Counted from the first letter of the stretch, positions 813 through 26,310 are shown. The stretch: DNA of 36,737 nt from a virus (IMGVR_UViG_3300027782_000181:1-36737); one strand, 5' to 3'. A program made the numbers and translations. Notes: generated from the sequence alone by a model not told the origin.

Positions 813-1151
813 TTAAGATACTTCAACGCCGAAGGCTGAAATTGAGATACTTGAAGAAGATGCGTTTGCCGCCAATACAGCGCCAGGTGGCAAAGTTAAT
901 CCAATATTGAGAGTTCCTGTATCACTCGCTGGCGCAACGCCACCACGAATGACAAAGTATGTATTAGCTGCACTTGTTGAGAAGTTAGCAGAAGGCATTA
1001 CGATAATGCTATAAGAAGCATTACTTGTTGATTGATTGGCAATAATAATAGAACTTACAACCGCAGCTGTTGAACTAGGAACAACATACACATTACCTTG
1101 TGTGTTTGCAGTCGGATTTAATTGACCAAGAATTTTATATGCGTTTGCCAT
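813..1151 (-). CDS. Small beta-rich fibre-associated protein, ~110-aa family (copy 1)
   Basis: A 112-residue protein rich in Ser, Ala, Asn, Val and Ile, with no charged core and no signal peptide. It aligns by eye with the product of 11453-11791: both begin with a K-x-LG-x-[LI]NP-[TS]ANTQ pattern, continue with NVYVVP and an NQ-x(2)-SNASYS motif, then IRGGV.P..DT, and end with SSSSISI-x-AFG-x-EV. The second half of the 1151-1675 product and, more weakly, the 12470-12796 product are further relatives. The family is unnamed as far as I can tell. Its place directly before a glycine-rich adhesin, with start and stop overlapping the gene before it as TAATG, suggests a structural part of a fibre or its attachment. 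That function is inferred. Confidence 0.7.
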   Translation of the reverse strand: MANAYKILGQLNPTANTQGNVYVVPSSTAAVVSSIIIANQSTSNASYSIIVMPSANFSTSAANTYFVIRGGVAPASDTGTLNIGLTLPPGAVLAANASSSSISISAFGVEVS

Positions 1152-1675
1152 TATATTAACTCAACTCCGTATGCGTGAACTGAAACCCCAGCAGCAGATG
1201 TTGCCGCATTGGCACCGGTCGTATTGGCTGCAAGAATAGAATTTGCTGGTAATGTAATGCCTGGTTCCAATATCAATGTATCGGCTGCAGGTATTGTTAA
1301 ACCTTTAATTAGATAATGCTTTGTAGCAAGCGCTTCTGATGTAGGTCTAACTGCCAAATCAAATACAACTGCGTTTGGTGTGCCGTTACAAACAGTAATA
1401 GAATTCAATGATGTGTAAGATGTTGATGGAACAACATAAACGTTAGCAATAGAGTTTGCAGTTGTCGCAATTTGACCAAGAATTTTGTAACCAGCAAAAC
1501 TATTTGAGTTAACAGCAAGTTGCTGGCCAGACATTGTGAAAACGCCATTGGCAATAAACATCTGAGGCACACCAGCTGCATTTGTAGAAAACAAAGTTGA
1601 GCCAGTATTACTCAGAATACTAAATGTATTATCTGAATCTAGTGTTACTGACGATACTAAAATTGAACCGGCCAT
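1151..1675 (-). CDS. Fibre-like protein: MAG-type N-terminal anchor plus ~110-aa family domain
   Basis: A 174-residue two-part protein. The first ~60 residues (MAGSILVSSVTLDSDNTFSI, then a short-repeat stretch with NGVFTMSG) resemble the N-termini of the proteins at 1952-2677 and 2707-3810, a typical fibre shaft or attachment lead. From about residue 63 a copy of the ~110-aa family begins: YKILGQIATTANS, NVYVVPST, a middle LIKGLTIPAADT motif, and VHAYGVELI at the end. The stop overlaps the start of the next gene (TAATG), so the two are probably translationally coupled. It is effectively a fusion of modules found separately elsewhere in the window. A role in the adsorption apparatus is inferred from composition and context. 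Confidence 0.65.
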   Translation of the reverse strand: MAGSILVSSVTLDSDNTFSILSNTGSTLFSTNAAGVPQMFIANGVFTMSGQQLAVNSNSFAGYKILGQIATTANSIANVYVVPSTSYTSLNSITVCNGTPNAVVFDLAVRPTSEALATKHYLIKGLTIPAADTLILEPGITLPANSILAANTTGANAATSAAGVSVHAYGVELI

Positions 1676-1684
1676 ATTATCTCT

Positions 1685-1942
1685 TTAATTAAATTTAGAA
1701 GCTTGCTCTTCTTTGAAGGCAGTATAAGCGGCACGAACTTCAGTTGTCCATGCGGCATTAGCAATGTCTTTTACTTTTTGTTCTTGTGCAGAAATATCTG
1801 AATCGGGAGTTAATACCCAGCGATGAAAAGTTCTCGCTACTTGAACGCCATCTTTTTCAATGGTAGTTGCTTGGCGAACTTGGATATTCCAATCGTTTAC
1901 AACTTCAATTTGGTCAATTTTTGTAGATTCTGTAAGTGCCAT
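1685..1942 (-). CDS. Small tail-fibre partner/assembly-chaperone-like protein
   Basis: An 85-residue charged protein, quite unlike its low-charge fibre neighbours. It contains VRQATTIEKDGVQVARTFHRW and then VLTPDSDIS, with a helical C-terminus rich in Ala, Lys and Glu. From memory, short proteins of this type often sit next to phage tail fibre genes and are annotated as hypothetical or chaperone-like. A strong ribosome binding site (AAGGA, 6 nt before the ATG) sits between the stop of the 241-aa fibre gene and this start. By analogy with the other small partner genes in the array, it may fold or trimerise the preceding 241-aa head. That pairing is inference. Confidence 0.55.
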   Translation of the reverse strand: MALTESTKIDQIEVVNDWNIQVRQATTIEKDGVQVARTFHRWVLTPDSDISAQEQKVKDIANAAWTTEVRAAYTAFKEEQASKFN

Positions 1943-1951
1943 AATTAATCC

Positions 1952-2677
1952 TTAAGCTGCTGATTCATAAACAACCGATCCAACAATTCTTGCACTATTT
2001 CCAAGAACGCCAAATGAGTTATATTGTATAGTTGTTCCAGAAGTTGCACTATTTCCAACAAACAATGCGGTTGTAGCAGCATTTTGCATATAAAAACCTA
2101 GATAAACAAGGTTTGTTGTTAATGATGCCCAATATGAAGTTGAACCAGTATATGGAAATCCTGCGCCGGTTGTAGTGAATGGAAATCCTGATAATGTAGA
2201 TGTGCTTCCTGTACCAATAACATTTATAGTAAAGTCAAATGCAGCATAAACCATTCTTCCAACTTTTACATAAATTCCATATTGGTTTGTGTATGTAGCA
2301 TTTCCACCAACACTAGGTGTCCAAGTACCTTCTTCATAATCATCTAAGCAGTTACCATCACCTGAAGCAATCTGTGTAGCAGGAAACTGTAACTGACCAC
2401 CAGTTAAAATGAATGGTGCATTAGCAGTTGTAATCTGTCCGTTTGCAGTAATACCTAATGCAGTTGTACCTGTTGCAGTAACAAGGTTTGCACCAATAAC
2501 TGATGGTGTTGAGATAGAGTTATTTGAAGTAACAACAATTCTACCGCCACCAACATTCAATGAATTACCAACAATGGTCAATCCATTAGCATCAATAAAT
2601 GCCACATTGGCAGAAGCAATTTGTAACTTTAGGTTACTGTCTGCTTTTAGTGTATCTACATTAAGTGTACCGGCCAT
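1952..2677 (-). CDS. Tail fibre protein with EGTWTP-type C-terminal head
   Basis: A 241-residue protein. Residues 1-60 are a short-repeat fibre lead (MAGTLNVDTLKADSNLKLQI, NGLTIVGNSLNVGGG) related to the N-termini of the 367- and 174-aa proteins. Around residue 112 it carries LDDYEEGTWTPSVGG, a motif I know from the boundary of many phage fibre receptor-binding heads. The remaining ~125 residues are a Tyr/Phe/Thr-rich beta domain with GIYVKVGRMVYAAF and end in VVYESAA. It is preceded by a late-promoter-like element at 2701-2708 and followed by an 85-aa partner-like gene. A receptor-binding fibre is the most likely role; the target is unknown. Confidence 0.75.
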   Translation of the reverse strand: MAGTLNVDTLKADSNLKLQIASANVAFIDANGLTIVGNSLNVGGGRIVVTSNNSISTPSVIGANLVTATGTTALGITANGQITTANAPFILTGGQLQFPATQIASGDGNCLDDYEEGTWTPSVGGNATYTNQYGIYVKVGRMVYAAFDFTINVIGTGSTSTLSGFPFTTTGAGFPYTGSTSYWASLTTNLVYLGFYMQNAATTALFVGNSATSGTTIQYNSFGVLGNSARIVGSVVYESAA

Positions 2678-2700
2678 GTTATCTCTTTAATTTAATCTAG

Positions 2701-2708
2701 TATTTATT
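2701..2708 (-). promoter_or_regulatory. T4-type late promoter-like element AATAAATA
   Basis: Read on the minus strand the bases are AATAAATA, one mismatch from the T4 late -10 consensus TATAAATA and matching the looser NATAAATA form. It overlaps the stop codon of the S74 fibre gene and lies 23 nt before the ATG of the 241-aa fibre gene. An AT-rich octamer can occur by chance; its repeated position at gene junctions supports it. Confidence 0.4.
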
Positions 2709-3810
2709 ATGCTTCTAAAGCTTCAATACGAGCTTTGAGGTCAGAAATGATTGCTTGTTGTTCTTGGATAGCAGCAGTTAATGTTGCCACTAAGAATGAA
2801 ACATCAACACCTTGATATTGTGGATTCCCTTCATCATCAACCGCATCTTTTTGACCAGTTACGCAATCAGGTACAACAGCTTGTAATTCGTGAGCAATAA
2901 AACCTTGGCCATTAGAACCATCCACTTTCCACTTGTATGTTACTGGTTTTAACTGAGCTACTTTAGACAAAGCACCAGTCATAGGTGCAATATTTTGTTT
3001 TAATCTGTAATCAGAAGATGTGTTGTAAGCAGTTGCACTTAATGTGTTTGAAATAGTACCTACTTGGCTGCCGTTTCTATAAAAACGAACATAATTTTCT
3101 GTAGCAGAACTTGTTCGTAATTCATTAAAAAGCATATGCTCAACACCATTAGCTCCATTTGCATGAGTAACAATTCGTTGAGTACCGCTAGGGCTTGCGG
3201 TACCACCAATCTGCATACTACCAGAAGCATCAATACGCATAGCTTCTGTGTATGATGTTCCGGTACCAAAAGTCATATAACCTGACTGAATTTGCATTAA
3301 AGCTCTTGCATCAGATGCTCCATACAAATTTCGTAATGTAGCAATTGTGTAATTACTATCATCATGGTCCAACATAGTACCTGAAGTTCCACCAAGATGA
3401 ATTTGAGCATTTCCAGATCCTGTTGCAGAATAAACGTGCAACAATCTTCTTGATGCAGTAAAACCAGAACCGCCAGAAGGAGTAATTCCTCCAATTCCAA
3501 CATCTCCACCAGAAGTAACTCTAACCGCTTCAACGCCAGCAGTATGAACTCTTACTGTGTTAGCTGTTGCAGTATTAAAGCCTGTTGTGCCAGTAGAATC
3601 AAAATTTAAGTTGCCTGAAACAGTCGAAGAAGTAATTGTTGCACCAGAGATTGTGGAATTACCAATAGAACCATCAGTACCAATCATCTTAGCACCAGAT
3701 GATGAATAGATGCCTGAAGAATTCATGGTAGCAACTCGTGTGTTGCTGACATTCATCTGAAGAAATGAAGCTTCAGTTTGTATTGTGTCTGCTATAATTT
3801 TACCAGCCAT
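2707..3810 (-). CDS. Tail fibre with C-terminal peptidase S74 intramolecular chaperone
   Basis: A 367-residue fibre. The N-terminus (MAGKIIADTIQTEASFLQMN) is the same anchor type seen in the 241- and 174-aa proteins. The middle is a beta-rich shaft with GNSTISGATITSST-like steps. From about residue 266 comes a textbook S74 domain: SDYRLKQNIAP with the cleavage-site Ser266, then LKPVTYKWK, GFIAHELQAVVP, and a C-terminal coiled coil ending in ARIEALEA. In this family (endosialidases, T5 L-shaped fibre) the domain helps the trimer fold and then cuts itself off, which here would release about 102 residues. No small chaperone gene follows it, unlike its neighbours, as expected for a self-chaperoned fibre. 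Confidence 0.92.
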   Translation of the reverse strand: MAGKIIADTIQTEASFLQMNVSNTRVATMNSSGIYSSSGAKMIGTDGSIGNSTISGATITSSTVSGNLNFDSTGTTGFNTATANTVRVHTAGVEAVRVTSGGDVGIGGITPSGGSGFTASRRLLHVYSATGSGNAQIHLGGTSGTMLDHDDSNYTIATLRNLYGASDARALMQIQSGYMTFGTGTSYTEAMRIDASGSMQIGGTASPSGTQRIVTHANGANGVEHMLFNELRTSSATENYVRFYRNGSQVGTISNTLSATAYNTSSDYRLKQNIAPMTGALSKVAQLKPVTYKWKVDGSNGQGFIAHELQAVVPDCVTGQKDAVDDEGNPQYQGVDVSFLVATLTAAIQEQQAIISDLKARIEALEA

Positions 3811-3819: not shown

Positions 3820-4242
3820 TTAAACTATTGTCCACGTTGAATTATTGGAAACCGTGACCACAACATTGTTGGCCAGCGTAAGTGGCCCGGCAGAGGACGC
3901 ATTATAGCCGGTGGTAATTGTGCAATTCTCTGTTAGAATATTAGCGTTAATTCTTACGATACCTTGTGAATCAGCAGAAAGGTATGGGTTGACCAAAACT
4001 CTTTCGCCAAGGTAAGTTAATTCGATATTACTGGAACCACTTGGTGGTGCTTCAGTAAATACGATTTGTCCGTTAATCAAAGCATACGAATCTGCTTTCT
4101 GCTTAACACCGGAAATACAAACGATAACAGATGATTCGTTACCTGTGCCATATGACAGCGAGTATGTGGTTTGACTTCCAGTACCAGAGAAATACTCTGT
4201 TCTGAACGAACCATTGATTATTTGATTTCCTAAGTATGACAT
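3820..4242 (-). CDS. Small fibre-associated structural protein, YLGN type
   Basis: A 140-residue beta-rich protein that begins MSYLGNQIINGSF, close to the MGYLGN start of the protein at 11795-12466. It shares with that protein a domain ending in INGQIVFTEAPPSGSSNIEL (there, LTFTEAPPSGTNNVYL). Its last ~45 residues (AGPLTLANNVVVTVSNNSTW, then TIV) resemble the end of the 92-aa protein at 9349-9627 (AGPLTI, then GSTWVIL). It is therefore a mosaic of two modules that occur separately in this window. It is probably a virion decoration or fibre tip protein; no enzyme motif is seen. Confidence 0.65.
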   Translation of the reverse strand: MSYLGNQIINGSFRTEYFSGTGSQTTYSLSYGTGNESSVIVCISGVKQKADSYALINGQIVFTEAPPSGSSNIELTYLGERVLVNPYLSADSQGIVRINANILTENCTITTGYNASSAGPLTLANNVVVTVSNNSTWTIV

Positions 4243-7078: not shown

Positions 7079-7238
7079 CTGCTGCATCCAACTGAGCTTG
7101 AGTTGGTTGTGTTAATGTTGGGTGATTCCAAGACTTGATGTAATCATCTCCACCATCATTCTGAAGATTAATTTTTACCATAAAATCTTCAGTAGTAAGT
7201 TCTGGATAAATTGATTTGATTTTTTCATATAAAGTCAT
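7074..7238 (-). CDS. Small XkdW-like fibre partner (54 aa)
   Basis: A 54-residue protein starting at ATG 7238, overlapping the stop of the C1q-like fibre gene as TAATG, with GGAG 6 nt upstream. It reads MTLYEKIKSIYPEL, then KINLQNDGGDDYIKSWNHP and TQPTQAQLDAAE. This resembles the XkdW family (PF09636) of small proteins found after phage fibre genes. The 59-aa protein at 8640-8819 is a clear paralog, and both follow a C1q-like head. Co-folding with the preceding head is inferred. Confidence 0.75.
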   Translation of the reverse strand: MTLYEKIKSIYPELTTEDFMVKINLQNDGGDDYIKSWNHPTLTQPTQAQLDAAE

Positions 7239-7801
7239 TATGCACTCCGAATCAAAGCAGCATTGAAATAGTTATATGAAGGATCAGCATTGTTAAAATT
7301 CAAAGAACCACTATATGTGTGATAAACATATCCTTGAAGATAATCAGATGTTCCATTCATATAAACAACACCAGTAGTAGTCATTTGCATTGAGTTTGTA
7401 CCATTCATTGGAATAGACCCACCAGCTCTATATTGACTACCATTTTTATAAATTTTTGTAAATGCATTACCAGATGCCGCTGTAGGTATCCAAAATCCAA
7501 CGGTGACTAGGTAATAACCAGCAATATTAGGTCCAAACGAATAAGCAGGAACAGATACTCCGTTTAATGTTGCTGTGGATCCAGTGGCATTAAAACAACC
7601 ACCAGTATCAAATTGTTTTGCATCGGCAACTAAAGCAGTATTTGTTGAAGCTGAGACAGTAAATGTTCCGTTATTATAAGCAGCAACACATGGTGCTAAA
7701 CCGTATGGCAATTGAAATCCAGTATTTGCTCCGCTGGAATTAAGGTTAGCCATAATAACGCCATTGGCCGTTTGTATTTGATTTAATTTTAAGACGCTCA
7801 T
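7238..7801 (-). CDS. Tail fibre/tip protein with C1q-like head, copy A
   Basis: A 187-residue protein. A short attachment segment (MSVLKLNQIQTANGVIMANL) precedes a beta-sandwich head. Its spaced motifs resemble C1q/TNF-like phage heads: GYYLVTVGFWI around residue 100, TKIYKNGSQYR, VVYMNGTSDYLQGYVYH and a final YFNAALIRSA. The 176-aa protein at 8819-9349 has the same order (GYYLVIGMARF, IFVNGSVYS, VYLNGSTDYVEF, FTGSLLRAA). Such domains trimerise and often bind surface glycans or proteins. No shaft repeat is present, so it may cap another fibre. The fold is assigned from pattern only. Confidence 0.7.
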   Translation of the reverse strand: MSVLKLNQIQTANGVIMANLNSSGANTGFQLPYGLAPCVAAYNNGTFTVSASTNTALVADAKQFDTGGCFNATGSTATLNGVSVPAYSFGPNIAGYYLVTVGFWIPTAASGNAFTKIYKNGSQYRAGGSIPMNGTNSMQMTTTGVVYMNGTSDYLQGYVYHTYSGSLNFNNADPSYNYFNAALIRSA

Positions 7802-7804: not shown

Positions 7805-8107
7805 TTACTCTGGTTTTGGATATTTAGTCTTAACGGCCTGGCAGGCTGCAATATAGGCATCAATTTGTTCTTGGTCACCTTTCACTACACCGTCAAGGTA
7901 ATCTGTGTATGATGGGTATTCTAAAGCACGATTTCTTTGATATTGCTTGGCTTCGTATTCTGCTGTAAGACGAAGAAGTTCATTGTCAATCTGTTCGTTA
8001 GTTACTGGAGCAATAACAGGATTAACCCATTGAACATCATTACCATAAATATTGACTTGAGCATTTGGAACAAGAGATAAGATTGCTTTTATTTTAGTAA
8101 TAATCAT
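7805..8107 (-). CDS. Tail fibre assembly chaperone-like protein (100 aa)
   Basis: The start at 8107 (MIITKIKAILSLVPNAQVNI) is chosen over an upstream ATG. It overlaps the 178-aa gene stop as ATGA and has GGAG 8 nt upstream. The central helix NEQIDNELLRLTAEYEAKQY is followed by NRALEYPSYTDYLDGVVKGD, then AYIAACQAVKTKYPKPE. The arrangement (R-A-EYPS..D.LD...KGD, ending in AVK-x-[KR]YPKP) is the signature I associate with phage tail assembly chaperones of the PF16778 type. It directly follows the 178-aa head and is its probable partner. Confidence 0.75.
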   Translation of the reverse strand: MIITKIKAILSLVPNAQVNIYGNDVQWVNPVIAPVTNEQIDNELLRLTAEYEAKQYQRNRALEYPSYTDYLDGVVKGDQEQIDAYIAACQAVKTKYPKPE

Positions 8108-8640
8108 CCTGCAATCTCCATTAAAGTTAATGTGCTGGCACACTCTGTAAGTCCATCAACTGATGGACTCGCTCCTTCTGTTGAATTAAAAGAAACAGTA
8201 ATTGCTCCAGATGAAGGCAACCAAGAATAAATTTTATATGTTATACTACTTGTTGTTGAAGGACTATCTACAAATGAAACAGATGGTTTAGTTTGAAGCT
8301 GATTTCCTGATCCACCTCTATCGTAAGCTCTTAAATTGGTAAAACTTGCAGCTAGTTTTGTTCCGCTTCTATCTACAATTAAAAACGCAAGATTGTCGAA
8401 ACTTGAAACTCTATCTATTAACACACTAGGAGCAGCTATAACTAAAATCCTACTAGATGAACTTGTTGGTGTAATAGACGCTGAAATTCCACTATCTATC
8501 CAAGAGCCTGTGGTCGATGTTGTAGAGTATGTTCTTGTATTTGCACTCACAACTTGCAGCACTTCACCAGTTTGTCTGGATGAAAAACCACCAGAAGAAG
8601 CTAATCCTGTGATTGATGAACTATTGAGAACTAAAGGCAT
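8104..8640 (-). CDS. Virion tip/fibre head protein (178 aa)
   Basis: A 178-residue beta-rich protein. After MPLVLNSSSITGLASSGGF comes GEVLQVVSANTRTYSTTST, then SGISASITPTSSSSRILV, and it ends in STLTLMEIAG. This layout (a Q-V-x(3)-T-x(3)-S-T-x(2)-W start, an IxPxSxSSKILV-like strand and a TLMEI end) is common in short fibre-tip proteins of aquatic phages, from memory. The terminal MEIAG codons contain the GGAG ribosome binding site for the next gene. The receptor is unknown. Confidence 0.7.
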   Translation of the reverse strand: MPLVLNSSSITGLASSGGFSSRQTGEVLQVVSANTRTYSTTSTTGSWIDSGISASITPTSSSSRILVIAAPSVLIDRVSSFDNLAFLIVDRSGTKLAASFTNLRAYDRGGSGNQLQTKPSVSFVDSPSTTSSITYKIYSWLPSSGAITVSFNSTEGASPSVDGLTECASTLTLMEIAG

Positions 8641-10583: not shown

Positions 10584-11453
10584 TTAATTAATAGTATATT
10601 GACCGGTGATAAATGCACCATCACCAGTAAATGTGTGAATAGTGTAACCACCAGATGATGTTACTGTTCCGCCAGTTGCACCTTGTGTTCCCGAATAACG
10701 AATTATTACAATACCTGAACCACCAGTGTTTGCACCGGCGCCGCCGCCACCTGTATTTACTGTTCCAGCATTTCCGCCAGATGCACCACCTGCACCGCCA
10801 CCACCTGTGCTTGGAGTTCCAGCACCACCTGTCACGTTTGCATTGCCGCCAGCACCGCCAGCATAATATGTTGATGTGCCTGAATATGAAGATGTTGAAC
10901 CAATACCACCTGCACCGCCAGTTTGGCCATTAGGATTTGGAGCACTACCGCCAGCCCCGCCTGCGCCGCCACCGCCACCACCTGCTTGAACTGTTACACC
11001 TTGTGTACCTGCACCTGTGCCGCCATTATTTCCTTGACCTGGAGTTCCTGAACCACCTGGCCCAGCACCACTATTTCCACCGCCTCCTGATCCACCTGAA
11101 GCGCCAGAAAATTGTCCTGGATTAGTATCTCCACCGCCGCCACCTCCGCCACCGCCAATCGCAGTTACAGATGAGAAAGTTGAATTTGATCCGTTTAAAC
11201 CTCTAGCATTTAATAGATATGTTCCGCCAGCGCCTACTGTTACAGCATATGATGTGTTGTCTGTAACAGAAAAACTACTGCCTGTTGCAAAACCTCCAGC
11301 ACCACCGCCGCCTCCGTAATATCCAGCACCAGCAGAAGAACCACCTGCGCCACCACCAGCAACCACGAGATAATCAACTGAAGTTACTCCTCTACCTGAT
11401 AATCCCACAGGATAGTCATAACCAACAGGACGGCCTAATCTGCGGACACTCAT
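10584..11453 (-). CDS. Glycine-rich tail adhesin (289 aa)
   Basis: A paralog of the 302-aa protein. It starts MSVRRLGRPVGYDYPVGLSG, then TSVDYLVVAGGGAGG, and ends with GSGIVIIRYSGTQGATGG, SSGGYTIHTFTGDG and FITGQYTIN. The central region is glycine-rich with a different loop sequence and length. The start overlaps the stop of the 112-aa gene as TAATG, repeating the arrangement at 798-1151, so the pair (112-aa protein plus glycine-rich protein) exists twice in the window. A receptor-binding role is inferred from the architecture. Confidence 0.78.
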   Translation of the reverse strand: MSVRRLGRPVGYDYPVGLSGRGVTSVDYLVVAGGGAGGSSAGAGYYGGGGGAGGFATGSSFSVTDNTSYAVTVGAGGTYLLNARGLNGSNSTFSSVTAIGGGGGGGGGDTNPGQFSGASGGSGGGGNSGAGPGGSGTPGQGNNGGTGAGTQGVTVQAGGGGGGAGGAGGSAPNPNGQTGGAGGIGSTSSYSGTSTYYAGGAGGNANVTGGAGTPSTGGGGAGGASGGNAGTVNTGGGGAGANTGGSGIVIIRYSGTQGATGGTVTSSGGYTIHTFTGDGAFITGQYTIN

Positions 11454-11791
11454 TATACTACCTCAGTACCAAATGCACCAATAGAAATTGAAGAAGAACT
11501 TGTGTTAGCTGCTAAAACCATACCAGCATTTGCGGTAAGACCTAAAGTAATAGCAATTGTATCAGCTGCAGGAACAACACCACCACGAATGATGTATGTT
11601 GCAGTTGGAGCTGCTGCATTAAATTCCGAAGAATTCATTAATGCCAAACTATAAGAGGCATTAGAAGCTGTTTGATTACAAATAGTAATTGTTGAGATTA
11701 CTGCTGAAGTTGCTGCAGGCACAACATACACATTAGTCTGCGTATTTGCAGATGGGTTAATTGCGCCAAGTCGTTTAAATGATTGTGCCAT
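11453..11791 (-). CDS. Small beta-rich fibre-associated protein, ~110-aa family (copy 2)
   Basis: A 112-residue protein, the same length as the 813-1151 product and alignable along its whole length: K-x-LG-x-[IL]NPSANTQ, TNVYVVPAAT, CNQTASNASYSL, a middle YIIRGGVVPAADT motif, then VLAANTSSSSISIGAFGTEV. Cys and charged residues are scarce, and the pattern is strongly beta. It sits directly before a glycine-rich adhesin gene. No characterised family comes to mind. A structural connector between baseplate or fibre and adhesin is one possibility. Confidence 0.7.
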   Translation of the reverse strand: MAQSFKRLGAINPSANTQTNVYVVPAATSAVISTITICNQTASNASYSLALMNSSEFNAAAPTATYIIRGGVVPAADTIAITLGLTANAGMVLAANTSSSSISIGAFGTEVV

Positions 11792-12469: not shown

Positions 12470-12796
12470 TTATGCAATCTCTAGTAATGAAACGATGGTG
12501 TCAACTGCGTTGTTTGCACTAGTTGTGATTTTAATTGAATCAGCTGCCTGCAACACAACTTTTTGGTCGCCACCAATTGGAACTAAAGAAGAACCAGTCA
12601 GAATTGGTGCATTAGAAATGATTGAATAGTCAACAGACGAACGGCGCAAGAACACATTTGCGGTTACCGTGCCGTTGGACTTATTAGATAAAGTCATTCC
12701 AATCAGAGTTGTTTGTGTAGCAGACGGACAAGTGTAAACAGTATTTGAAGTAACTTCAATGTTCACATTAGCCGTTGATTTAAAGGTATTTGCCAT
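12470..12796 (-). CDS. Small beta-rich fibre-associated protein, ~110-aa family (divergent copy)
   Basis: A 108-residue protein (MANTFKSTANVNIEVTSNTV, YTCPSATQTTLIGMTLSNKS, SLVPIGGDQKVVLQAADSIK, VDTIVSLLEIA). The order of features (short lead, V-Y-x-[VC]-P followed by a T-x-[IL]-x(2)-[MI] strand, an NK/NQ turn, a GG-x(2)-V/P turn and a hydrophobic end) recalls the 112-aa proteins, but conservation is weak and homology is tentative. It starts after a doubled late-promoter-like element, with AAGGA upstream of the ATG. Proteins of this kind are often annotated as virion structural. Confidence 0.6.
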   Translation of the reverse strand: MANTFKSTANVNIEVTSNTVYTCPSATQTTLIGMTLSNKSNGTVTANVFLRRSSVDYSIISNAPILTGSSLVPIGGDQKVVLQAADSIKITTSANNAVDTIVSLLEIA

Positions 12797-13805: not shown

Positions 13806-16800
13806 TTATGCACCGGCTGGTAAAGCAATTGCACGGAAATCACGAACCTTAGGAACATCAGTAGTATCAGTTCCAGTCAATACAATCTTAATAGCAAATG
13901 TTCTAAATGAATTATATGCAGTTGAACTAGTCGTATAGTTTACAGAATTATTGGCAGAACCACCAACACCTGGCGCATATGCAATTTCTCTGTAATCATC
14001 AGGACCAGCAGAAGCAAAGTTTGCATTACTTAACTGAGTCATCAATTGCCAAGTTTTATCATCAAATGTTGCAGTATCAGCAGCAGACAGTAACTTGTAA
14101 TATACACGAATGTTTGCAGCTGCAGGTTTGTATGCGGTCAAATAAACACGCAAGTCACCAGAATCAAATCCGTCAGCAAGAACCACTTTACGAGTTAGGT
14201 AACGAACATAAGAGTTACCACCAGATTTCTTATCTTCACCGTTATAGGTAATTGTTGCACCAGTACCCGGAGTTGTGTTAGCATCAACCAATGTAAATGT
14301 TGGAGATGTTTCATAACCAGAACCAGGATTTGTCAAGTAAATAGATGTTACCACATTAGCAGTAACAACGGCAGCCGCAGTTGCACCTGAACCTCCGCCA
14401 CCTGTAATAGTTACAACGGCGTTGGCGTTAGTTGAGTAACCTGTTCCACCACTTGTTAATGTAATACCAGAATTACTCAATGGCAAATCATTGATAATGT
14501 TTTCAACGGCAATTACACCATATCGTGATGTGTCTAAAAATGGAGAAATATCAGGATTGGATGTTTGTAATGTAGCCTTAACAATTAATGTTGTATTACC
14601 TGTTGCTGGGTTTAATACACGGCGGCCAAAACCATCATTCATTTGGAAGTCGGTTAATGGAGTAATGTTTTTATATCCAGTCATACCACCAGTTGATTTT
14701 TCAGAATTAAACTGGTAAGATAAAGAAGTATTAGCAACAGTAACATCTGAGGTAATCAAGTGTGTTAAGTCATAGACTGTATTTGAACTTGGATAATTAA
14801 TCTTAAATGTTGCTTGAACAGGATCGGTACTAAACACATAACGGAACAATCTAAACATGAGGTCTGAATTTTGGTCAGCAGTCCATGTAGAACCGTTTTG
14901 TGATAAGAACAATGAACCGCCATATGGTTGTTCAGAAATTTGACGACCACTTACTGTGTCAAGTTTACCAATTTCAGCAACATACACCTCATACTTGTTA
15001 GAGTTAGCCAACAATACAAATGAATGTTCACCTGGCTGCAAGTAGATTGGTGCATCAAACTCAAACTCTGTATATTTACTAGCAGTATCTAAGTTTGGAG
15101 ATGTAGTTGTATTAACTTTATCTGGTGTCAAAGTAACTGTTGAGTAAGGATAGATTATAGAAGATGATGGGTAACCATTTGTTGCAGGACGAACCTGTAA
15201 TGTAACTGGTACTGTTGTATCTTTCGATTTAAATGCAAAACGAGCCTTAGACAGGAAAATACCTTGTGGGTAATTTACTGGTGATATTAAGAATGTTTGT
15301 GCAAGTGGATCCCAATAACCAATCACAACTTGGCGACTTGTTGTAGAAGAAACAACACGATTGTCGGTTACAGAAGCTCTTTGAATTGTTGGTACAGTTG
15401 TAGAGATAATAGTATTCTCTGTTGACTGTAAAATGCCTTGTGCAAAGAATGTAGCGTCACCGTTTGTAGATGAAGAACCTAAATCGCCGGTTGAATTGTC
15501 AACCATTCTAAAGTTCTTTTCACCAACACGGAATGTTGCAGAAGGAATATTAAACACACCAGCAACATCGCCTGCCATGGTAGTTTTTAGATTACCAATT
15601 GAGTAGATAGAATCAGTAGATGGTATAGTTGTCCATGCACCAGAGATTGCTACATTTCGTGTAGCAGCTGTGTAAGTAGTAATTGTGCCTTGTTGGCCAG
15701 CACCAGTTCCACTAACAATATAGATTGGTGAACCAACATAATCAGTAGTATTATTAGCACCAAACGCATCAACATTCAATACAATAGTATTTCCAGTAGC
15801 AGAGGCTGCATTACCAGAGTAGTGGTCATAGCCAACAACACGAACAGTTGTTCCTGTTGAAGAACCAACCAAGTTCATTGTAGAACCGTTAAGTGCAGAA
15901 GATGGGTTAACACTAATAATAAATGCTTCAGTATTAGATGTGCGAACAACATATGCAGTAGCATTAGTTGTGCTAGTTGCAGTATTAACTACTGAAACTG
16001 TTTCTGGATTGCCAATCTCAGTTCTGAAACCAAGATTATTTGTGGCAATTTTAAATTTGTTAGCACGAGCAACATACTTGTCAATATTAACATTATCAAA
16101 GAAAGAATATAATGTGGTATCTGGTTTAAAATCAGAACCAGTAAATAACACATTACGATTTCTCATGTAAGGAATAATAGACACATCAACAACACGGTCA
16201 CCCAAAGATTGAGTAATTGTGGTTGGAACAACAGTTGTTTTAACACCAGTTCTTGTTTGTGATGATGATGTTGTTGTTGTTTCTGTACCGTAAACCACTT
16301 CATATCGGCCTGTTGCACCTAACCAACCACGATATGCAGGACTGTCAGTTGTTGTTCCAGTCCAATATGTTGACCAATCACCCCACTCATATGAGTAAGC
16401 GTTGGCAGTAATTATATTCCAAGCATCTTTGTCACCTTGCAGATTAACAAGAACATCTGGTTGTTTATTAGTGTCAATCCAAATATCAGACGCTGGGTCT
16501 AATTGAATTTTACCTAAGAAGTTAATCACATTGAATGGATTAACATTGATTGATTTGGAAGCTTTGTTTTGGTCAATAAATGCTGAGTGTGCAGCATTAG
16601 CAGTAACCAAAGGACCGTTCTTCATAAAGTTGCTTGAAGTGGCGGAATCAAATGTTAATAAATGTGAAGATATGTTAAATGATGGACGCAGTTCTTTGTT
16701 CTTAGGGTCAATAGACGATAAGTAATCATTTTTTGCCACATCAGCTACAGAGTGGCCATCAAATGCATCAACCAAAATACCATTCTTAAATCGTGGTAAA

Positions 16801-19748
16801 TTTGTGCTATCAAGTATTGTTAAATCTTGTTTGTTAACAGCAGATTGTTCTAGCAATGACAATGATGTATAATATTCTAAGTTTTCAACACGCTTGTCGA
16901 TTGCACCAATATCACGCATTGTATAACGGCGATTGTCTTTGTATTCAACTCTAATTAAAGATGTATTGGCAACATACGCAGGTTCACGCAAGGTATACAA
17001 AGTCATTGCCCCATCTTTGTCTTTTGGTTCAACAGGAGTTAGGGAAGGAATGCCTTGAACTACCTCAAATGTTCTGTCTTTGTTTAATACTACCTTGTCA
17101 ATTCTTGGTAAGTAGTATTGATAGTTTAGAATGATGTCGGAACCATTCTCAGGAATCTTAGGACCAGTCGTGGTTGAATCAACATCGAATGTGACGGTGT
17201 TTGCTGTTGTTGTGCTTGTTGGCGTTGCTCGGACAGGCCTAAAATCAAGGCAATCCGAAAGTTGGTAATTGTTGCCTGCACCAACAGATGAATATGTAGG
17301 AATAGAACCATAATCATACCCACTATAAGAATCAACATCAAAGAAACCAGCACCAGACGAACTGAATCGGTTATATTTAACGACTAGGGGTCCAACAGGA
17401 GTTGCTACACCAGCTTTCAAACTAATAGAAGCATGGTCATAATAAGAATCTCTTTGACCATTATCTAATGTATAGCGTGAAGTAATATCTGTTGCAATAG
17501 CAGCATTAGCAACTGTAATTTGATTGCCATTAAAATCTAATACTGAAGAAACGGCTACAACATCAGACACAAATAATGATTGTGCAGTTGCAGGTGTTTT
17601 AACAACAGTATTGGCCATAATGTGAGTTTGGCCTTGTGAAGCATAAAGAATTACGCCGTTATTAGCAAACAACGCTGTGCCGCCACTTGTTTGAACGGTT
17701 GCATTTGCAGTTGCAAAAGTTTTTGTTTTTGCTGATGGATTTGAAGAATCAATCGTTGCAACAATATTAGCAGTCATATTGTTACCAGAAGTAACAGTAA
17801 TTTTACGAGTGCCTGTATCTACTGTAAATAGATTAGAAGGAATAATTTGACCAACAGTATATGGCGAAGTACCAGAAGCTGTTACAACAACTGTATATTT
17901 TTCGTTTTTACTTGAAGTGCTTACAGCAGCAGAAATGGCTTCACCAGTACCTACTGAAAGTGTAGGTGATATTGAAGATGAAAAAGCTTGTGCTTCATAC
18001 ATTCTCTTATATGAGAAAGACAAATTACCAATAGTTCCACTAGCAACATAATTTTGACCAAGTGGCAATAATAGTGGCTCTAACTTAGTATCTGAAATAA
18101 ATGTGTCATCGTAAGTTGTTGCTGGGTCTTTAGAAGCACCATCAATATCAGCAGCTGCAACACGAGTTGTTCCGCTTGTAACAGCTAATGATTTAATATC
18201 ATTAACTTCAAAGTCAATAGACCAAGTTGATGTTGTATTTGTTGTAGCAATAAATTGTTGAGATAATGTGATAACACCAGTAGCGCCATTATAATTTGTA
18301 ATATATTTTGGAGTTTCACCAGCACCAGGACCAGCAATGATACGAAGTTTAGCACCAGTATATGCATTGTTCTGTGTAGAATAATATTGTCCAGCACCAG
18401 TATTGCCAATTGTAATTGTTGTGGTATTAGATGTTAATACATTACCTGTTAATGAAGAAACATTAACATCAAACAAATAAGTGCGATATTCATATGTAGC
18501 AGAGTTTGATGTGTTTGAAGCTGCTTCAAATTCAATACTTTTTACACGAGCAGTACCAATCTTTGTATTAGTAATTGTGTTTGTAGATGAAACATTAATT
18601 GAACCATTTGATACACAATGCAAATCAATAGTAGCTAAACTATTAATTGGAAATGTACCAAAGTGTGTATTTGAATAAACATAATAACCATAGTCAGAAG
18701 AAATGCGTTTATTAGAAACATTATCTGTTGTTCTTGGTTTATTAAATGTAATTGTTGTTGGTCCAATTGTTTCGTGTTCGTAACCATAGACATATGCTTT
18801 ACCTGGCGACAATACAACATTGGCTTTTGCGGTATTAGCAGCACTTGTGTCTAATGAAAGTTTAAATGGTCTTACTGTGTAGTTACCAGATTCATCGTAA
18901 GTTCTACGAGCAAGAGTATCTTCTAATACCGCATACAATGGGTATTTTACAGAATAGGTTAATGCGCCTTGTTCAACACGAGCAAGTTCAATAAATTGTG
19001 TATCATCGGTAGAATCTAAAGCACGAGTTGATAATACTAATGAAATTTTGTAGCGGTCGGAACCAGGTGCTTGAAAGTTTGAAGCATCTTGAGCAGGATC
19101 CAACAACGAAGTGTCTTGTGTATATTCTACAACAGCTTCAGTAACTTCAAAACCAATTCTTGCATTAGCTGTTGCGTTATTATATTTTGATGTGGCAATA
19201 GTTTGTGCATCGTTCTTAATGAAGAAACCATCGTAATAGAATACACCATCATTTACAGAAAATGTTTGGCCTGTTCCAACACCAGATGTTGAAACATTAG
19301 CATATGCAGGCGCAGTTTCAACTGTGGAAATTTTATCTCCAGAAGCAAAAGCAGTACCATAAATCTGTTTGACTAATAGTGTTTTTGGATCACCTGTACC
19401 AGAATCAGCATCATAAACAACAACAACTTCACCACGCTTTGTTCCTGTGGAATCAGTAATTGTTTTACCATTAAAATTTGTTACAGAAACAGCTAAACCA
19501 GAATAATCGGTATCTAATTTTAAGTATGTAGCATTTTGAAGAAAAGTTTGACCACCAGTTACAAGAGAACCATTTTTGAAAACATTATTACCAAAACGAC
19601 TAATTTGGCTCTGTAAAAGAGTTTGTAATTGTGTTAACTCACGAGCTTGAACAGCATAACCTGGCTTAAACAATAGACGAAGAAACTTTTTAGCTTCATC
19701 GAAGTCGTCATAGTATGGGTTGACATTAAAATTAGTATTTAACGACAT
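13806..19748 (-). CDS. DUF4815 giant baseplate/tail structural protein (1980 aa)
   Basis: The longest gene in the window. The N-terminus (NPYYDDFDEAKKFLRLLFKP, then GYAVQARELTQLQTLLQSQI and FGNNVFKNGSLVTGG) is the hallmark of DUF4815 tail proteins of T4-like aquatic phages. Near residue ~1140 the region DRVVDVSIIPYMRNRNVLFT, then DFKPDTTLYSFFDNVNID, is also typical. The middle and end contain beta modules, including GGTGYS and GSGYETSP repeats around residues 1790-1850 that also occur in gp6-, gp7- and gp8-like proteins. No enzyme motif is visible. By context it sits at the wedge periphery, perhaps where T4 has gp9/gp10, and may anchor the fibre array. That placement is inference. Confidence 0.85.
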   Translation of the reverse strand: MSLNTNFNVNPYYDDFDEAKKFLRLLFKPGYAVQARELTQLQTLLQSQISRFGNNVFKNGSLVTGGQTFLQNATYLKLDTDYSGLAVSVTNFNGKTITDSTGTKRGEVVVVYDADSGTGDPKTLLVKQIYGTAFASGDKISTVETAPAYANVSTSGVGTGQTFSVNDGVFYYDGFFIKNDAQTIATSKYNNATANARIGFEVTEAVVEYTQDTSLLDPAQDASNFQAPGSDRYKISLVLSTRALDSTDDTQFIELARVEQGALTYSVKYPLYAVLEDTLARRTYDESGNYTVRPFKLSLDTSAANTAKANVVLSPGKAYVYGYEHETIGPTTITFNKPRTTDNVSNKRISSDYGYYVYSNTHFGTFPINSLATIDLHCVSNGSINVSSTNTITNTKIGTARVKSIEFEAASNTSNSATYEYRTYLFDVNVSSLTGNVLTSNTTTITIGNTGAGQYYSTQNNAYTGAKLRIIAGPGAGETPKYITNYNGATGVITLSQQFIATTNTTSTWSIDFEVNDIKSLAVTSGTTRVAAADIDGASKDPATTYDDTFISDTKLEPLLLPLGQNYVASGTIGNLSFSYKRMYEAQAFSSSISPTLSVGTGEAISAAVSTSSKNEKYTVVVTASGTSPYTVGQIIPSNLFTVDTGTRKITVTSGNNMTANIVATIDSSNPSAKTKTFATANATVQTSGGTALFANNGVILYASQGQTHIMANTVVKTPATAQSLFVSDVVAVSSVLDFNGNQITVANAAIATDITSRYTLDNGQRDSYYDHASISLKAGVATPVGPLVVKYNRFSSSGAGFFDVDSYSGYDYGSIPTYSSVGAGNNYQLSDCLDFRPVRATPTSTTTANTVTFDVDSTTTGPKIPENGSDIILNYQYYLPRIDKVVLNKDRTFEVVQGIPSLTPVEPKDKDGAMTLYTLREPAYVANTSLIRVEYKDNRRYTMRDIGAIDKRVENLEYYTSLSLLEQSAVNKQDLTILDSTNLPRFKNGILVDAFDGHSVADVAKNDYLSSIDPKNKELRPSFNISSHLLTFDSATSSNFMKNGPLVTANAAHSAFIDQNKASKSINVNPFNVINFLGKIQLDPASDIWIDTNKQPDVLVNLQGDKDAWNIITANAYSYEWGDWSTYWTGTTTDSPAYRGWLGATGRYEVVYGTETTTTSSSQTRTGVKTTVVPTTITQSLGDRVVDVSIIPYMRNRNVLFTGSDFKPDTTLYSFFDNVNIDKYVARANKFKIATNNLGFRTEIGNPETVSVVNTATSTTNATAYVVRTSNTEAFIISVNPSSALNGSTMNLVGSSTGTTVRVVGYDHYSGNAASATGNTIVLNVDAFGANNTTDYVGSPIYIVSGTGAGQQGTITTYTAATRNVAISGAWTTIPSTDSIYSIGNLKTTMAGDVAGVFNIPSATFRVGEKNFRMVDNSTGDLGSSSTNGDATFFAQGILQSTENTIISTTVPTIQRASVTDNRVVSSTTSRQVVIGYWDPLAQTFLISPVNYPQGIFLSKARFAFKSKDTTVPVTLQVRPATNGYPSSSIIYPYSTVTLTPDKVNTTTSPNLDTASKYTEFEFDAPIYLQPGEHSFVLLANSNKYEVYVAEIGKLDTVSGRQISEQPYGGSLFLSQNGSTWTADQNSDLMFRLFRYVFSTDPVQATFKINYPSSNTVYDLTHLITSDVTVANTSLSYQFNSEKSTGGMTGYKNITPLTDFQMNDGFGRRVLNPATGNTTLIVKATLQTSNPDISPFLDTSRYGVIAVENIINDLPLSNSGITLTSGGTGYSTNANAVVTITGGGGSGATAAAVVTANVVTSIYLTNPGSGYETSPTFTLVDANTTPGTGATITYNGEDKKSGGNSYVRYLTRKVVLADGFDSGDLRVYLTAYKPAAANIRVYYKLLSAADTATFDDKTWQLMTQLSNANFASAGPDDYREIAYAPGVGGSANNSVNYTTSSTAYNSFRTFAIKIVLTGTDTTDVPKVRDFRAIALPAGA

Positions 19749-19760
19749 TAAATATTTTCC

Positions 19761-21311
19761 TTAGAATCTAATAACAAACTTAACATTTTCAGCTTGTCCT
19801 TCTGCTCTTTCAACTTTTTGTATATTTTCAGCATACATGATATCGCCACTATATGGTTGGAACTCTGGTAAATTTTGTTTAACAATTGTTCTGTTTACAC
19901 CAGAACTGGCACCAATCAAAATACCACCAACCGCAGCTTGACCTCTAACTTTAGTCAATCTAACTTGGTTTGAAGATTGTGCATTAACAAAACCATAAAA
20001 ATAGGCATTGTTTGCAGAACTACCTTGGTAGACAAATTCGTTCAATGTAAAATCAGTACCTGCGACCAATGTCAAATTGGTTGTTTGTGAGATAACAGTA
20101 TTTGCATTAGAACTTGTTACTGGTGATGTTTCACCATATTTATATGGGTCCCGTAGAAGGCCATATTGTCTAAATGCTGTGCTAGTGGAAATAAGTCCAC
20201 CTTCTGTTGAATCTACCAATCCAATCTTATCAGCAACCATTACATTTCCGCCATTCAATTCTTTAGCGGGATTGTATGCATGGCCGTATTGTGGAGGTAA
20301 AGCAACACGAACATTTGCTCCCGTTCCAGAACCATATACAATAGCATTTGCATATGTATATCCTGATCCTGTCACATCTACTGTAATCTTTGAAATGGCA
20401 CGACTGGCAATTGTTGCAGAAGCTTCTGTACCAGAACCATCACCACTAACATAAACTCTTGTTGTAAATGTTAAATTGTTTGCTACTGTTCCGCCACCGT
20501 TTGCGGTTGTGGCAGTAGAAATTGTAATTGTAGAGCTAATAGCATTAACTGCGGTAACTAAAGTGGATGTTGCAATACCTGTTCCACTAACATACATATT
20601 TGCAGCCACATTTGTTGTGTTGGCCAAATTAATTGATGTTACGCCTGGACCAAATGCAGTAGATAAAATAGAAGGTTCCGCATATCCAGTTCCACCATTT
20701 GTAACAATAATAGTGGTTAATTCACCATTTACAACATCAGCAGAACTCACATTGTAATCTAATTTTGATGTGGAAATTGGTGCTGGCATCCAATCGGTTG
20801 TCAAAAACTTATTAGAAGGTTTGACATTATACATATACTTCCAAATGTAACCGTCAGCAGTTTTAATTGTACCGTTTGCGGTGGTGTAATCACCAGTTGG
20901 CATAACAGTAGAATTAGCGGAAGCGTTGTTTGACAAACACTTATAGACATTTCGGTCTGTGGTAATAACATACATTGGTTTAACATTCAATGTTGTATTG
21001 CCGGTTGTCAAATCATCTATTGTAATTAAATCATCATATTGTTTGTATTTTGTGGATCCTGTCCAATTGACCCTAGGAACAACCAATTCCACATCGTTAC
21101 CAGTAACTTTTTTGGCTGCAAACATATTGTCCCAAACTGTCTTTTCATCGGATGTAGAATCAACGATGGAGTTTGGTGACGATTCGTTTGCATAAGGAAC
21201 ATGGTTTCCAATAAAAACATAACCAACTGTTGCAGCTGGTTCTGAGAACGATTCTTTGAATTGTTCTGCGTTATTGAACGAGAGTTTCTTTGAGGTATAA
21301 AAAGTTGCCAT
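19761..21311 (-). CDS. 8: Baseplate wedge protein, gp8-like
   Basis: A 516-residue protein against 334 in T4 gp8. The N-terminal half is recognisable: FYTSKKLSFNNAEQFKESFS, GYVFIGNHVPYANESSP, NMFAAKKVTGNDVELVVPRV, MYVITTDRNVYKCLSNN, and the strongly conserved TADGYIWKYMYNVKPSN. Extra length comes from a beta-rich insertion of about 150 residues (from about residue 205) with GGTGYAEPSI- and GSGYTYAN-type repeats. In T4, gp8 dimers bridge gp6, gp7 and gp10 in the wedge. Its place right after the gp7-like gene and before DUF4815 matches wedge order. A CATAAATA element lies just upstream. Confidence 0.85.
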   Translation of the reverse strand: MATFYTSKKLSFNNAEQFKESFSEPAATVGYVFIGNHVPYANESSPNSIVDSTSDEKTVWDNMFAAKKVTGNDVELVVPRVNWTGSTKYKQYDDLITIDDLTTGNTTLNVKPMYVITTDRNVYKCLSNNASANSTVMPTGDYTTANGTIKTADGYIWKYMYNVKPSNKFLTTDWMPAPISTSKLDYNVSSADVVNGELTTIIVTNGGTGYAEPSILSTAFGPGVTSINLANTTNVAANMYVSGTGIATSTLVTAVNAISSTITISTATTANGGGTVANNLTFTTRVYVSGDGSGTEASATIASRAISKITVDVTGSGYTYANAIVYGSGTGANVRVALPPQYGHAYNPAKELNGGNVMVADKIGLVDSTEGGLISTSTAFRQYGLLRDPYKYGETSPVTSSNANTVISQTTNLTLVAGTDFTLNEFVYQGSSANNAYFYGFVNAQSSNQVRLTKVRGQAAVGGILIGASSGVNRTIVKQNLPEFQPYSGDIMYAENIQKVERAEGQAENVKFVIRF

Positions 21312-21321
21312 ATTAATTCTT

Positions 21322-21329
21322 TATTTATG
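21322..21329 (-). promoter_or_regulatory. Late promoter-like element CATAAATA
   Basis: The minus strand reads CATAAATA and contains the TAA stop of the 832-aa gene (GCA TAA ATA). It lies 10 nt before the ATG of gp8-like, so a transcript from it would have almost no leader. Confidence 0.45.
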
Positions 21330-23823: not shown

Positions 23824-25886
23824 TATTTGCTAATTTTTTCTAATGTTGTTGATATGGCAGTTGGATCATCCACATCAATAGTAAGAATTGTATCTCTTGT
23901 CGATTGAAGATAACCTTTTTCAATCTCAATTGATAGGCGAATTAATTCATCATTCGAATCAATTCTTATAAAACGAATATTATTAATAGTAACAATACCA
24001 TTATTGTAGTCAATTGTTCCAGCATTTGAATTAATAATCTGTCTTTGTGCTAATGTATCGTAGTAAATTGTTCTAAGTGTGCCTGTTCTACCATCAATAA
24101 CAGCTACAGCTTCTGCGCCGTAACCACTACCGCCTGTAATTGAAACAGTAGCACGAGTATAATCTGTACCACGATTTGTGATATTAATTGTTTGAATTCT
24201 TCCATTAACAATTACAGCTTCAGCAGTTGCACCAGTTCCATCACCATTAATTGTTACTGTTGGAGTTGTTGTGTAGCTTGAACCAGGATTTGTAATTTGA
24301 ATTTCCGAAACGCCTGTATAAGATTGTGGTGTTTCTTCAAACAACGCCGTTCTTAATGTTCCTGTTAAATCATATACTGCAAATTGTGTTGATGTTAATT
24401 TATTGGTAATTGTACCACGATGCAAAGGAACATTAAATTTAATTTCATAACTTACTGATTTATCTAATTGTGGTTGAAATCTTTTTTGAACTCTTGTTGT
24501 TGTTCTTACACCAACAACAGCATTAGGATTTACTTGATTAATGTCAGCCTCAACATCAGAAGCAACATATATTGTTCCAAATTTATTTAAATAAGTGGTA
24601 TTATAATTTAATATTGCTTGTTTAATAGATTGTTTTAATGCAGTTTCAGTAGATGTTGTTTTTCTTGGGTCATATTGGACATCATTTTCCAACAACAAAT
24701 ACAAATATTCGGCATCACGAATTTCAGTTTGTACCGAAATAATAGATTTTGGATTAATAATTTCCGATACAATTCTAGCTTTCTCTGTTTCAGAAATATA
24801 ATAATTTGCTTTTGGTTTTAAAGCTACATATACTTTACCATAAACTTTAGGAATCTCATCTTCTCCACCCCAAACAGAAATTGAATCGACACTTGGGTAA
24901 TGATTTTTAATATATGATTCATAATCTTTTACTGTAACCAAACGATTCTGTGTGGCATATTGTGCTTGTGCTGAGAATTTAATATTATCAACAGATTCAC
25001 GGTCTGAACCACCAGAAGCAGAAATGATTGGAGTAATTGTAAAATTTGTTTGAGAAACACTTAAAGAATCTGTTAGTGTAGCAGTTGCAATAAAATTATT
25101 TGCTTTATTGGCCGCAGTACCATTGGTAACCAAATATCTTACAGATACGGTTGCACCATCAGGCAAAGATTTACCTACATCATCGTTACCAAAATAAATT
25201 TCATATTTTCCGTTGCGACTTTCTTGTAAGAAATAAACTTCAGATGTATTAGAAACATCCAAAACATCAGTAACTTTGCTATAAGTGGAAGTTGCAGTAT
25301 TGGCAGATTGTGGTGTTACTACAACTTTAATTGTGTTAGTATCAATACCTTCATCAGGTAATGTAAAAATTTGTTTTGGATTTGAAGCTGCATTATATCC
25401 AAAGCTATAAGTAATTAATTGACCTTCACGAATTTCAAGGTTATCGAAATAATAACTTGTATTTGATTTGGTAACTGTTGTGTCATCCAAAACAACAAAA
25501 TTGTAGGACTTATTATCAATTTGATTTGATAAGAAAGCAAATCCTGATGGAATAGTTAATGTTGCTGGTGTTGTTGAACCAGATGCAACTTGAAAATCAA
25601 TAGTTGCAGTTGGTGCAGTAGTTGAATATGGTGTGTAACCCAAAGTCTTTGCGTGTGAAACGGCAGAATCACGCAACAAAGCGGTATCTAAAAATGACTC
25701 ATTTGCAACCATGTTAAGGTAATAAGCATTATAGTGGGTGTTGTATGCCAAGATATCCAACAAAACAGAAAGGCCAGACCCTTCAAAGTCATAGTCTGTA
25801 AACTCTGTTTGTTGATTTAAAAAGGTCTTTAAATTCGACTTGATTGTATCAAAATCAAGTTCGGTAACTCTTAAACGGTCTGCCAT
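23823..25886 (-). CDS. 6: Baseplate wedge protein gp6 (baseplate J-like)
   Basis: A 687-residue protein, close to the 660 of T4 gp6. Near residue 50 it has the characteristic LAYNTHYNAYYLNMVANESF, then LDTALLRDSAVSHAKTLGYT, a block conserved across gp6/J-type baseplate proteins. VKDYESYIKNHYPSVDSISV and WGGEDEIPKVYGKVYVALKP mark the J-like core around residues 310-355. Roughly residues 525-600 hold an insertion of GSSYTTTPTVTING- and TDYTRATVSITGGSGYG-type repeats. In T4, gp6 dimers form the continuous inner ring that holds the wedges together and changes shape at contraction. It follows gp25, as in other T4-like phages. Confidence 0.92.
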   Translation of the reverse strand: MADRLRVTELDFDTIKSNLKTFLNQQTEFTDYDFEGSGLSVLLDILAYNTHYNAYYLNMVANESFLDTALLRDSAVSHAKTLGYTPYSTTAPTATIDFQVASGSTTPATLTIPSGFAFLSNQIDNKSYNFVVLDDTTVTKSNTSYYFDNLEIREGQLITYSFGYNAASNPKQIFTLPDEGIDTNTIKVVVTPQSANTATSTYSKVTDVLDVSNTSEVYFLQESRNGKYEIYFGNDDVGKSLPDGATVSVRYLVTNGTAANKANNFIATATLTDSLSVSQTNFTITPIISASGGSDRESVDNIKFSAQAQYATQNRLVTVKDYESYIKNHYPSVDSISVWGGEDEIPKVYGKVYVALKPKANYYISETEKARIVSEIINPKSIISVQTEIRDAEYLYLLLENDVQYDPRKTTSTETALKQSIKQAILNYNTTYLNKFGTIYVASDVEADINQVNPNAVVGVRTTTRVQKRFQPQLDKSVSYEIKFNVPLHRGTITNKLTSTQFAVYDLTGTLRTALFEETPQSYTGVSEIQITNPGSSYTTTPTVTINGDGTGATAEAVIVNGRIQTINITNRGTDYTRATVSITGGSGYGAEAVAVIDGRTGTLRTIYYDTLAQRQIINSNAGTIDYNNGIVTINNIRFIRIDSNDELIRLSIEIEKGYLQSTRDTILTIDVDDPTAISTTLEKISK

Positions 25887-25890
25887 TTTA

Positions 25891-26295: not shown

Positions 26296-26299
26296 ATCT

Positions 26300-26307: not shown

Positions 26308-26310
26308 CGC

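Follow-up and report, generated by a model that had tools for sequence, protein, structure and literature searches.

A probable modular tail-fibre array with slot-specific leads and head-specific partner genes beside the baseplate block of a freshwater-type T4-like phage

In the freshwater myocyanophage Pam3, the tail fibre gp24 is accompanied by a chaperone, gp25, in which a beta domain binds the fibre and a helical domain serves assembly (PMC9608196, PDB 7YPX), and in the Alteromonas phages A5 and V22 a fibre and its cognate chaperone form a module that is common to distant phages (PMC10579305). Pelagimyophages, with their host recognition cluster (PMC7029224), and the Methylophilales phage Melnitz (PMC9004378) are T4-like and have variable fibre genes beside the baseplate, the modular receptor-binding proteins of Klebsiella phages join a conserved N-terminal anchor to a variable specificity part (PMC8262889), and Ackermannviridae gather several tail spikes in one branched complex (PMC11414711). 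Here, we analyze an array of small fibre-like genes in a 36.7-kb IMG/VR record (IMGVR_UViG_3300027782_000181:1-36737; this whole stretch of 36,737 nucleotides is called the window). The source is a freshwater-type T4-like phage. The baseplate homologues gp6, gp25, gp53, gp5, gp8, and gp48 adjoin each other in a T4-like block, after which the array runs up to the contig end.

We consider it reasonably probable that the window carries a modular tail-fibre (adhesin) array beside this baseplate block, built from a slot tag, a shaft, an exchangeable head, and a head-specific partner. A slot gene would encode a tag of about 13 residues that marks the slot, one or more shaft repeats, and an exchangeable C-terminal head. 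The fibre would trimerise, the tag may direct its insertion to a separate place at the baseplate or close by, and the head may bind the host receptor, while the small protein encoded downstream would act as an assembly chaperone specific for its head. An S74 head, with its chaperone in cis, would need no partner gene. Conceivably, recombination swaps head and partner as one cassette, with the slot tag staying in place. This arrangement would resemble Pam3 in having an N-terminal docking part, a head of the TNF-like and glycine-rich kind, and a putative chaperone encoded apart from the fibre, for which an order of N-terminal beta strands and C-terminal helices is predicted. However, Pam3 has a single fibre docked through an alpha-helical bundle, whereas the window has several slots, a short putative docking tag, and partners that vary by head type. 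Likewise, A5 and V22 have one fibre and a chaperone of 195 to 240 amino acids (aa), in contrast to partners of 85 to 115 aa that each go with a single head type and several slot-specific leads per phage in our case. The Klebsiella and Ackermannviridae proteins (PMC8262889, PMC11414711) are tailspikes or depolymerases, unlike the small fibres with an approximately 13-residue tag considered here. A grammar of lead, slot, and partner is not described in the available parts of PMC7029224 or PMC9004378. The features of the window on which the argument rests are as follows.

13806-30619, minus strand: T4-like baseplate block (DUF4815, gp8, gp7-like, gp6, gp25, gp5, gp53, gp48)
8104-8640, minus strand: fibre gene with MEIAG head (match to PDB 9efk orf22)
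7805-8107, minus strand: MEIAG-head partner S0, 100 aa from the ATG at 8107, phrog_9114/2687
3820-4242, minus strand: 140-aa protein (MSYLGN...), conserved gene immediately upstream of slot A
2707-3810, minus strand, ATG start: slot A fibre gene, 367 aa, with lead, stem, and S74 intramolecular-chaperone head
3772-3810, minus strand: slot A N-terminal tag, codons 1-13, MAGKIIADTIQTE
2860-3015, minus strand: S74 domain (Peptidase_S74, aa 266-317; Pfam, E 1.1e-14)
1952-2677, minus strand, ATG start: slot B fibre gene, 241 aa, with lead, stem, and EGTWTP head
2639-2677, minus strand: slot B N-terminal tag, codons 1-13, MAGTLNVDTLKAD (lead and tag profile comparisons)
1955-2344, minus strand: EGTWTP head, aa 112-241, predicted beta domain (AlphaFold2 [AF2] model and profile match)
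1685-1942, minus strand: EGTWTP-head partner S3, 85 aa, phrog_6228 (E 2.8e-22)
1151-1675, minus strand, ATG start: slot C fibre gene, 174 aa, with C1 lead and 110-aa KILGQ-type head
1637-1675, minus strand: slot C1 N-terminal tag, codons 1-13, MAGSILVSSVTLD (weak profile evidence; leader DNA common with slot B)

New in this analysis is the observation that the type of head predicts the gene that comes next. A search with lead alignments retrieved 24 viral contigs including the window, counted as 23 because C_046343 and C_048572 carry the same array. In these metagenomic and partly redundant contigs, with head classes taken from single-linkage clustering and regular expressions, MEIAG heads were followed by S0 in 19/19 cases, EGTWTP heads by S3 in 9/10, and heads of cluster H8 by S8 in 3/3 (permutation p 0.0005), and no recurrent partner was found after S74 or C1q-like heads. 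The same held in a second set of 156 loci that had not been used for building profiles and were fetched with the window head proteins, near-duplicates included. Here, S3 followed 75 of 87 EGTWTP heads and S0 15 of 17 MEIAG heads, S0 accompanied 1 of 20 C1q-like heads, and partners were absent after S74 (0/110) and AEL (0/42) heads. After clustering of the heads at 50% identity, the counts were 66/78 for EGTWTP-S3, 13/15 for MEIAG-S0, 1/11 for C1q-like, 0/15 for S74, and 0/37 for AEL. A third set was chosen neither by head nor by partner but by a degenerate DNA pattern encoding a tag of related type (about MA[ST]xIKVDT[ILV][QE]), which matched 60 viral contigs and fell at a protein start in all 60. 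As read from the table by C-terminal letters, glycine-rich tips in this set precede the small gene S5 in 17/17 cases, and MEIxG-type heads mostly precede S0. Four MEIxG-type heads without S0 precede a protein of about 127 aa, the C-terminus of which (YRQALRDIT...WPTKP) resembles Phage_tail_APC, as inspected by eye in two of the four. EGTWTP, MEIAG, and glycine-rich heads, three types in which no chaperone is built in, each precede a small gene of their own, and S0, S3, and S5 are each encoded by a separate gene directly downstream of the fibre. Single open reading frames (ORFs) fusing an EGTWTP head to S3 or a MEIAG head to S0 were not found. As side observations, head and partner share a frame in 38 of 75 EGTWTP-S3 pairs (L003-L161), about 25 being expected, and in L047 a 154-aa ORF, HNH-like by eye, lies between the EGTWTP head and S3 (about 6.5-7.0 kb) as if inserted. 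In the window, the stop of the MEIAG head overlaps the start of S0 (ATGA, 8104-8107), which suggests coupled translation.

The other half of the proposed grammar concerns the N termini. A sequence-only reading of the window had described three proteins that start with MAG, share a type of N-terminal lead, and carry different heads. Indeed, the ORFs at 2707-3810, 1952-2677, and 1151-1675 are present on the minus strand with ATG starts, beginning MAGKIIADTIQTEAS, MAGTLNVDTLKADS, and MAGSILVSSVTLDS, respectively, and carry an S74 domain (Pfam, aa 266-317), an EGTWTP domain, and a domain of the 110-aa family. We call the lead of the S74 protein A, that of the EGTWTP protein B, and the third lead of the window C1, and compared them with the initial MAG trimmed off to prevent it from contributing to a match. 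The A and B leads align with a hhalign probability of 92.6% (E 4.7e-7); other pairs reach 78% (A-C2), 66% (B-C2), 93% (B-B2), and 78% (C2-B2), as against 12% or less for control lead families of the same array. In a shuffle test (p<0.01), the B profile recognised all 12 A leads and the A profile 7 of 8 B leads, and controls were almost never recognised apart from a few matches of the B2 and C2 profiles. By these comparisons and shuffles, the A, B, B2, and C2 leads are one family. C1 is borderline or fails, with a probability of 3% with B and of 35% (E 4e-4) with A in an alignment that begins only at the seventh residue after MAG; the C1 tag of the window taken alone ranked 9 among 1690 control N termini (shuffle p 0.0125). 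At the DNA level, the slot B and C1 genes of the window share 17 of 20 upstream bases plus ATGGCCGGT, or 26/29 around the start codon, as against 3 to 12 of 20 upstream bases shared with slot B by the other array and baseplate genes. A relationship of C1 to A and B is therefore probable but not proven.

The sequence-only reading had further proposed that the leads dock different heads at the same virion site. A common N-terminal module on different heads was supported by the 23 slot contigs and the 60 contigs with related tags, but a single site was not, the leads resembling variants of one family that each belong to a slot rather than one tag for one site. Since the slot names were assigned from the lead profiles, the independent evidence is the gene order, which wherever several elements are present runs from the 140-aa gene (in several contigs followed by a homing-endonuclease-type gene) through A and B or B2 to C1, C2, or a second B2-like lead; in the available stretch of C_046343, a 140-aa ORF is absent from the place directly ahead of slot A. 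Slot-specific subfamilies together with this invariant order suggest neighbouring but distinct virion positions. Leads of the same slot have a median identity of 53% (A), 58% (B), 75% (C1), 67% (C2), and 47% (B2), and their heads one of 18 to 22%. The S74, MEIAG, EGTWTP, AEL, and C1q-like head clusters are all found with two or more types of lead and in several slots. Under the criteria used, no two fibres within the lead contigs share a head at 55% identity or more, so that head sharing across slots there is at the family level; outside them, L082 carries the S74 head of the window at 75% identity on an unrelated N terminus.

Exchange is also visible against the closest relative of the window, the sister contig IMGVR_UViG_3300032282_000149, to which, across several genes, most leads show high identity and most tips 20 to 40%. 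Identity in the MPLSRIN gene is 90 to 100% over about 300 residues and then 23 to 41%, in the MSVLKLN gene it drops from 90% to 33% past 30 residues, and in slot B it is 80 to 100% for 120 residues and 40% or less afterwards. Along the slot A protein, identity is uneven (93, 53, 90, and 66%, then 13 to 57%), and slot C1 is conserved along its whole length.

The heads themselves fall into recognizable families. The C terminus of the slot A protein matches Peptidase_S74 (PF13884) at 54.9 bits against a curated cut-off of 22, with an SSDYRLK motif, as read from the sequence, intact at the putative SxDxRxK autoproteolysis site. Heads of the S74 family carry an intramolecular chaperone in cis, which fits their lack of a partner gene. 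The EGTWTP head, modelled by AF2 with ten-residue blocks mostly at a predicted local distance difference test (pLDDT) value of 84 to 95, has a profile match to the C-terminal region of the Dettilon tailspike (6F7D/6F7K, E 5e-7) and finds the same tailspike as its best Foldseek match (E about 1e-3). When the slot B protein was modelled with its frame continued past the stop into the partner, a modelling device that implies no read-through, head and partner were predicted with high confidence and the lead with low confidence; at a predicted template modelling score of 0.51, the relative placement of head and partner is not interpretable. The MEIAG head matches residues 496-658 of orf22 in PDB 9efk (E 2.6e-7), and the slot C head is 39% identical over 89 aa to a stand-alone 112-aa protein (E 2e-18). 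The tail fibre gp63.1 of Escherichia phage St11Ph5 ends in a stretch 44.5% identical to the EGTWTP head (MG208881.1, 61692-62054), but this phage is absent from the S3 search list, and its next annotated gene begins only after another 217 bases.

How much of the lead could serve in docking is a separate matter. When a merged lead profile was run against the 156 loci, N termini were matched mainly by its first dozen positions, and positions of about 12 to 36 matched the inside of many S74 stems (xxxERMRIDSSGNVGI / xxTERMRIDSSGNVGI). Judged from such matches, the lead consists of a short tag at the N terminus and the opening unit of a shaft common to these fibres, and since about its second half resembles a generic shaft repeat, at most the first 13 or so residues are a candidate docking tag. 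One could therefore argue that the whole lead is merely the first shaft unit or a trimerisation cap, its similarity stemming from one common repeat; the internal matches would fit, as would the weak C1-A match, which covers only residues from the seventh after MAG onward. We find this unlikely, because the first 13 or so residues match N termini, are slot specific, and as isolated tags of A, B, B2, and C2 rank far above controls, and because a shaft role does not predict the invariant slot order. Even more doubtful is the idea that the leads are alike only as tandem duplicates, with a 5' end conserved for translation start or recombination instead of docking. The start-codon region common to slots B and C1 and the homing-endonuclease-type genes that often lie just before slot A speak in its favour, but in A, B, B2, and C2 (C1 excepted) it is at third codon positions that the tag varies most, which points to constraint at the protein level, and tag DNA (codons 4-13) of slot A is identical to that of other slots in the same contig at only 11 to 23 of 30 bases, poor material for recombination between slots.

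The partners raise a similar choice. S3 (phrog_6228), S0 (phrog_9114/2687), and S5 (phrog_7759) all belong to PHROGs of unknown function. S3 alone is modelled at a pLDDT of 92.7 as beta-beta-beta-alpha-alpha, with three strands and two helices, which resembles Pam3 gp25 in outline only, as the strands of S3 form one three-stranded run. S0 and S3 of the window have no Pfam match, including to Phage_tail_APC (PF16778), but in Melnitz, which alternates heads with S3, S5, and S0/APC-type partners and lacks the MAG leads, an S0-like N terminus is joined to a Phage_tail_APC domain (E 1.8e-14). The partner families are probably head-specific assembly chaperones, a role for which the APC-like protein that takes the place of S0 after some MEIAG heads also speaks. 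Alternatively, they might be additional subunits for adhesion or decoration that remain at the tip of the fibre; Tfa of phage Mu is reported to do so, and chaperones have been proposed as transient caps (PMC10579305); the lack of chaperone similarity in S3 is compatible with this. We regard such a role as rather unlikely given the domain joined to the S0 relative in Melnitz, the absence of partners after S74 heads with their built-in chaperone, and the predicted order of N-terminal beta strands and C-terminal helices in S3, the general layout reported for Pam3 gp25 (PMC9608196).

Several points weigh against the modular array as we propose it, and docking would be its weakest link. The lead modelled as a monomer had low confidence, and a PDB sequence search with the lead profile returned nothing convincing. 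In isolate phages, tblastn with the slot A lead alone and with one tag-bearing sequence gave no match, and another tag sequence gave one, gp60 of Pelagibacter phage HTVC023P, which bears a tag of the same type; in the available stretch of this 61-kb phage no T4-like baseplate gene is named, so the site would have to exist in a different kind of virion as well, unless the motif serves another purpose. The C1 slot of the window fits the lead profiles weakly and lacks the third-codon-position excess. Finally, S3 showed no sequence match to known chaperones, its model no clear fold match in PDB searches, and its profile nothing convincing in a PDB sequence search, and the chaperone function of the partners rests on position, pairing, and the joining seen in Melnitz.

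The modular array may have a broader version, which we offer tentatively. The first 13 or so residues might constitute an address code with one tag per slot and any head behind any tag, related tags (MA[GS]xIxVDxI) being used in aquatic phages of different virion types and heads circulating as cassettes with dedicated chaperones. In the 60 tag-selected contigs, head profiles matched in 34 (MEIAG 22, S74 8, EGTWTP 2, and C1q-like 2), and most of the remaining proteins have, by eye, glycine-rich YTA-type tips or a fibre-like appearance. Several contigs have homing-endonuclease-type genes immediately upstream of slot A and, in two cases, of slot B (L106 5354-5998, L019 4319-5089, L172 4216-4995, L187 1942-2583, L206 2811-3566, and others). 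The GIY-YIG gene of L106 and the HNH-type gene of L171 were confirmed by family search, the others being assigned by motif alone. These genes may promote the exchange of neighbouring fibre genes. Two further genes belong to the window array.

7238-7801, minus strand: C1q-like fibre gene, tag-like start MSVLKLNQIQTANG (by eye, compared with MASKIKVDTLETANG of the tag-selected set)
813-1151, minus strand: stand-alone gene for a 112-aa protein related to the slot C head (E 2e-18; 39% identical over 89 aa)

The tag of the former is a likeness by eye, for which a fixed-register tag profile gave no support. The latter belongs to the 110-aa KILGQ-type family, which occurs both as the slot C head and in stand-alone genes (813-1151, 11453-11791, and 12470-12796), all three of which match phrog_1276. 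The window also encodes three glycine-rich adhesin-like proteins (1-798, cut by the contig end, 9662-10570, and 10584-11453); S5 is not directly downstream of the two complete ones.

In aquatic T4-like phages, host-range variation sits in a hypervariable region that is annotated almost wholly as hypothetical protein. The grammar of slot tag, shaft, head, and head-specific partner makes this region readable from sequence and assigns to three orphan PHROG families a function that can be tested; if the address code were true, phrog_6228, phrog_9114/2687, and phrog_7759 would gain a function. It also tells which pieces nature has exchanged and offers a means of reading how aquatic viruses change their host-binding parts.

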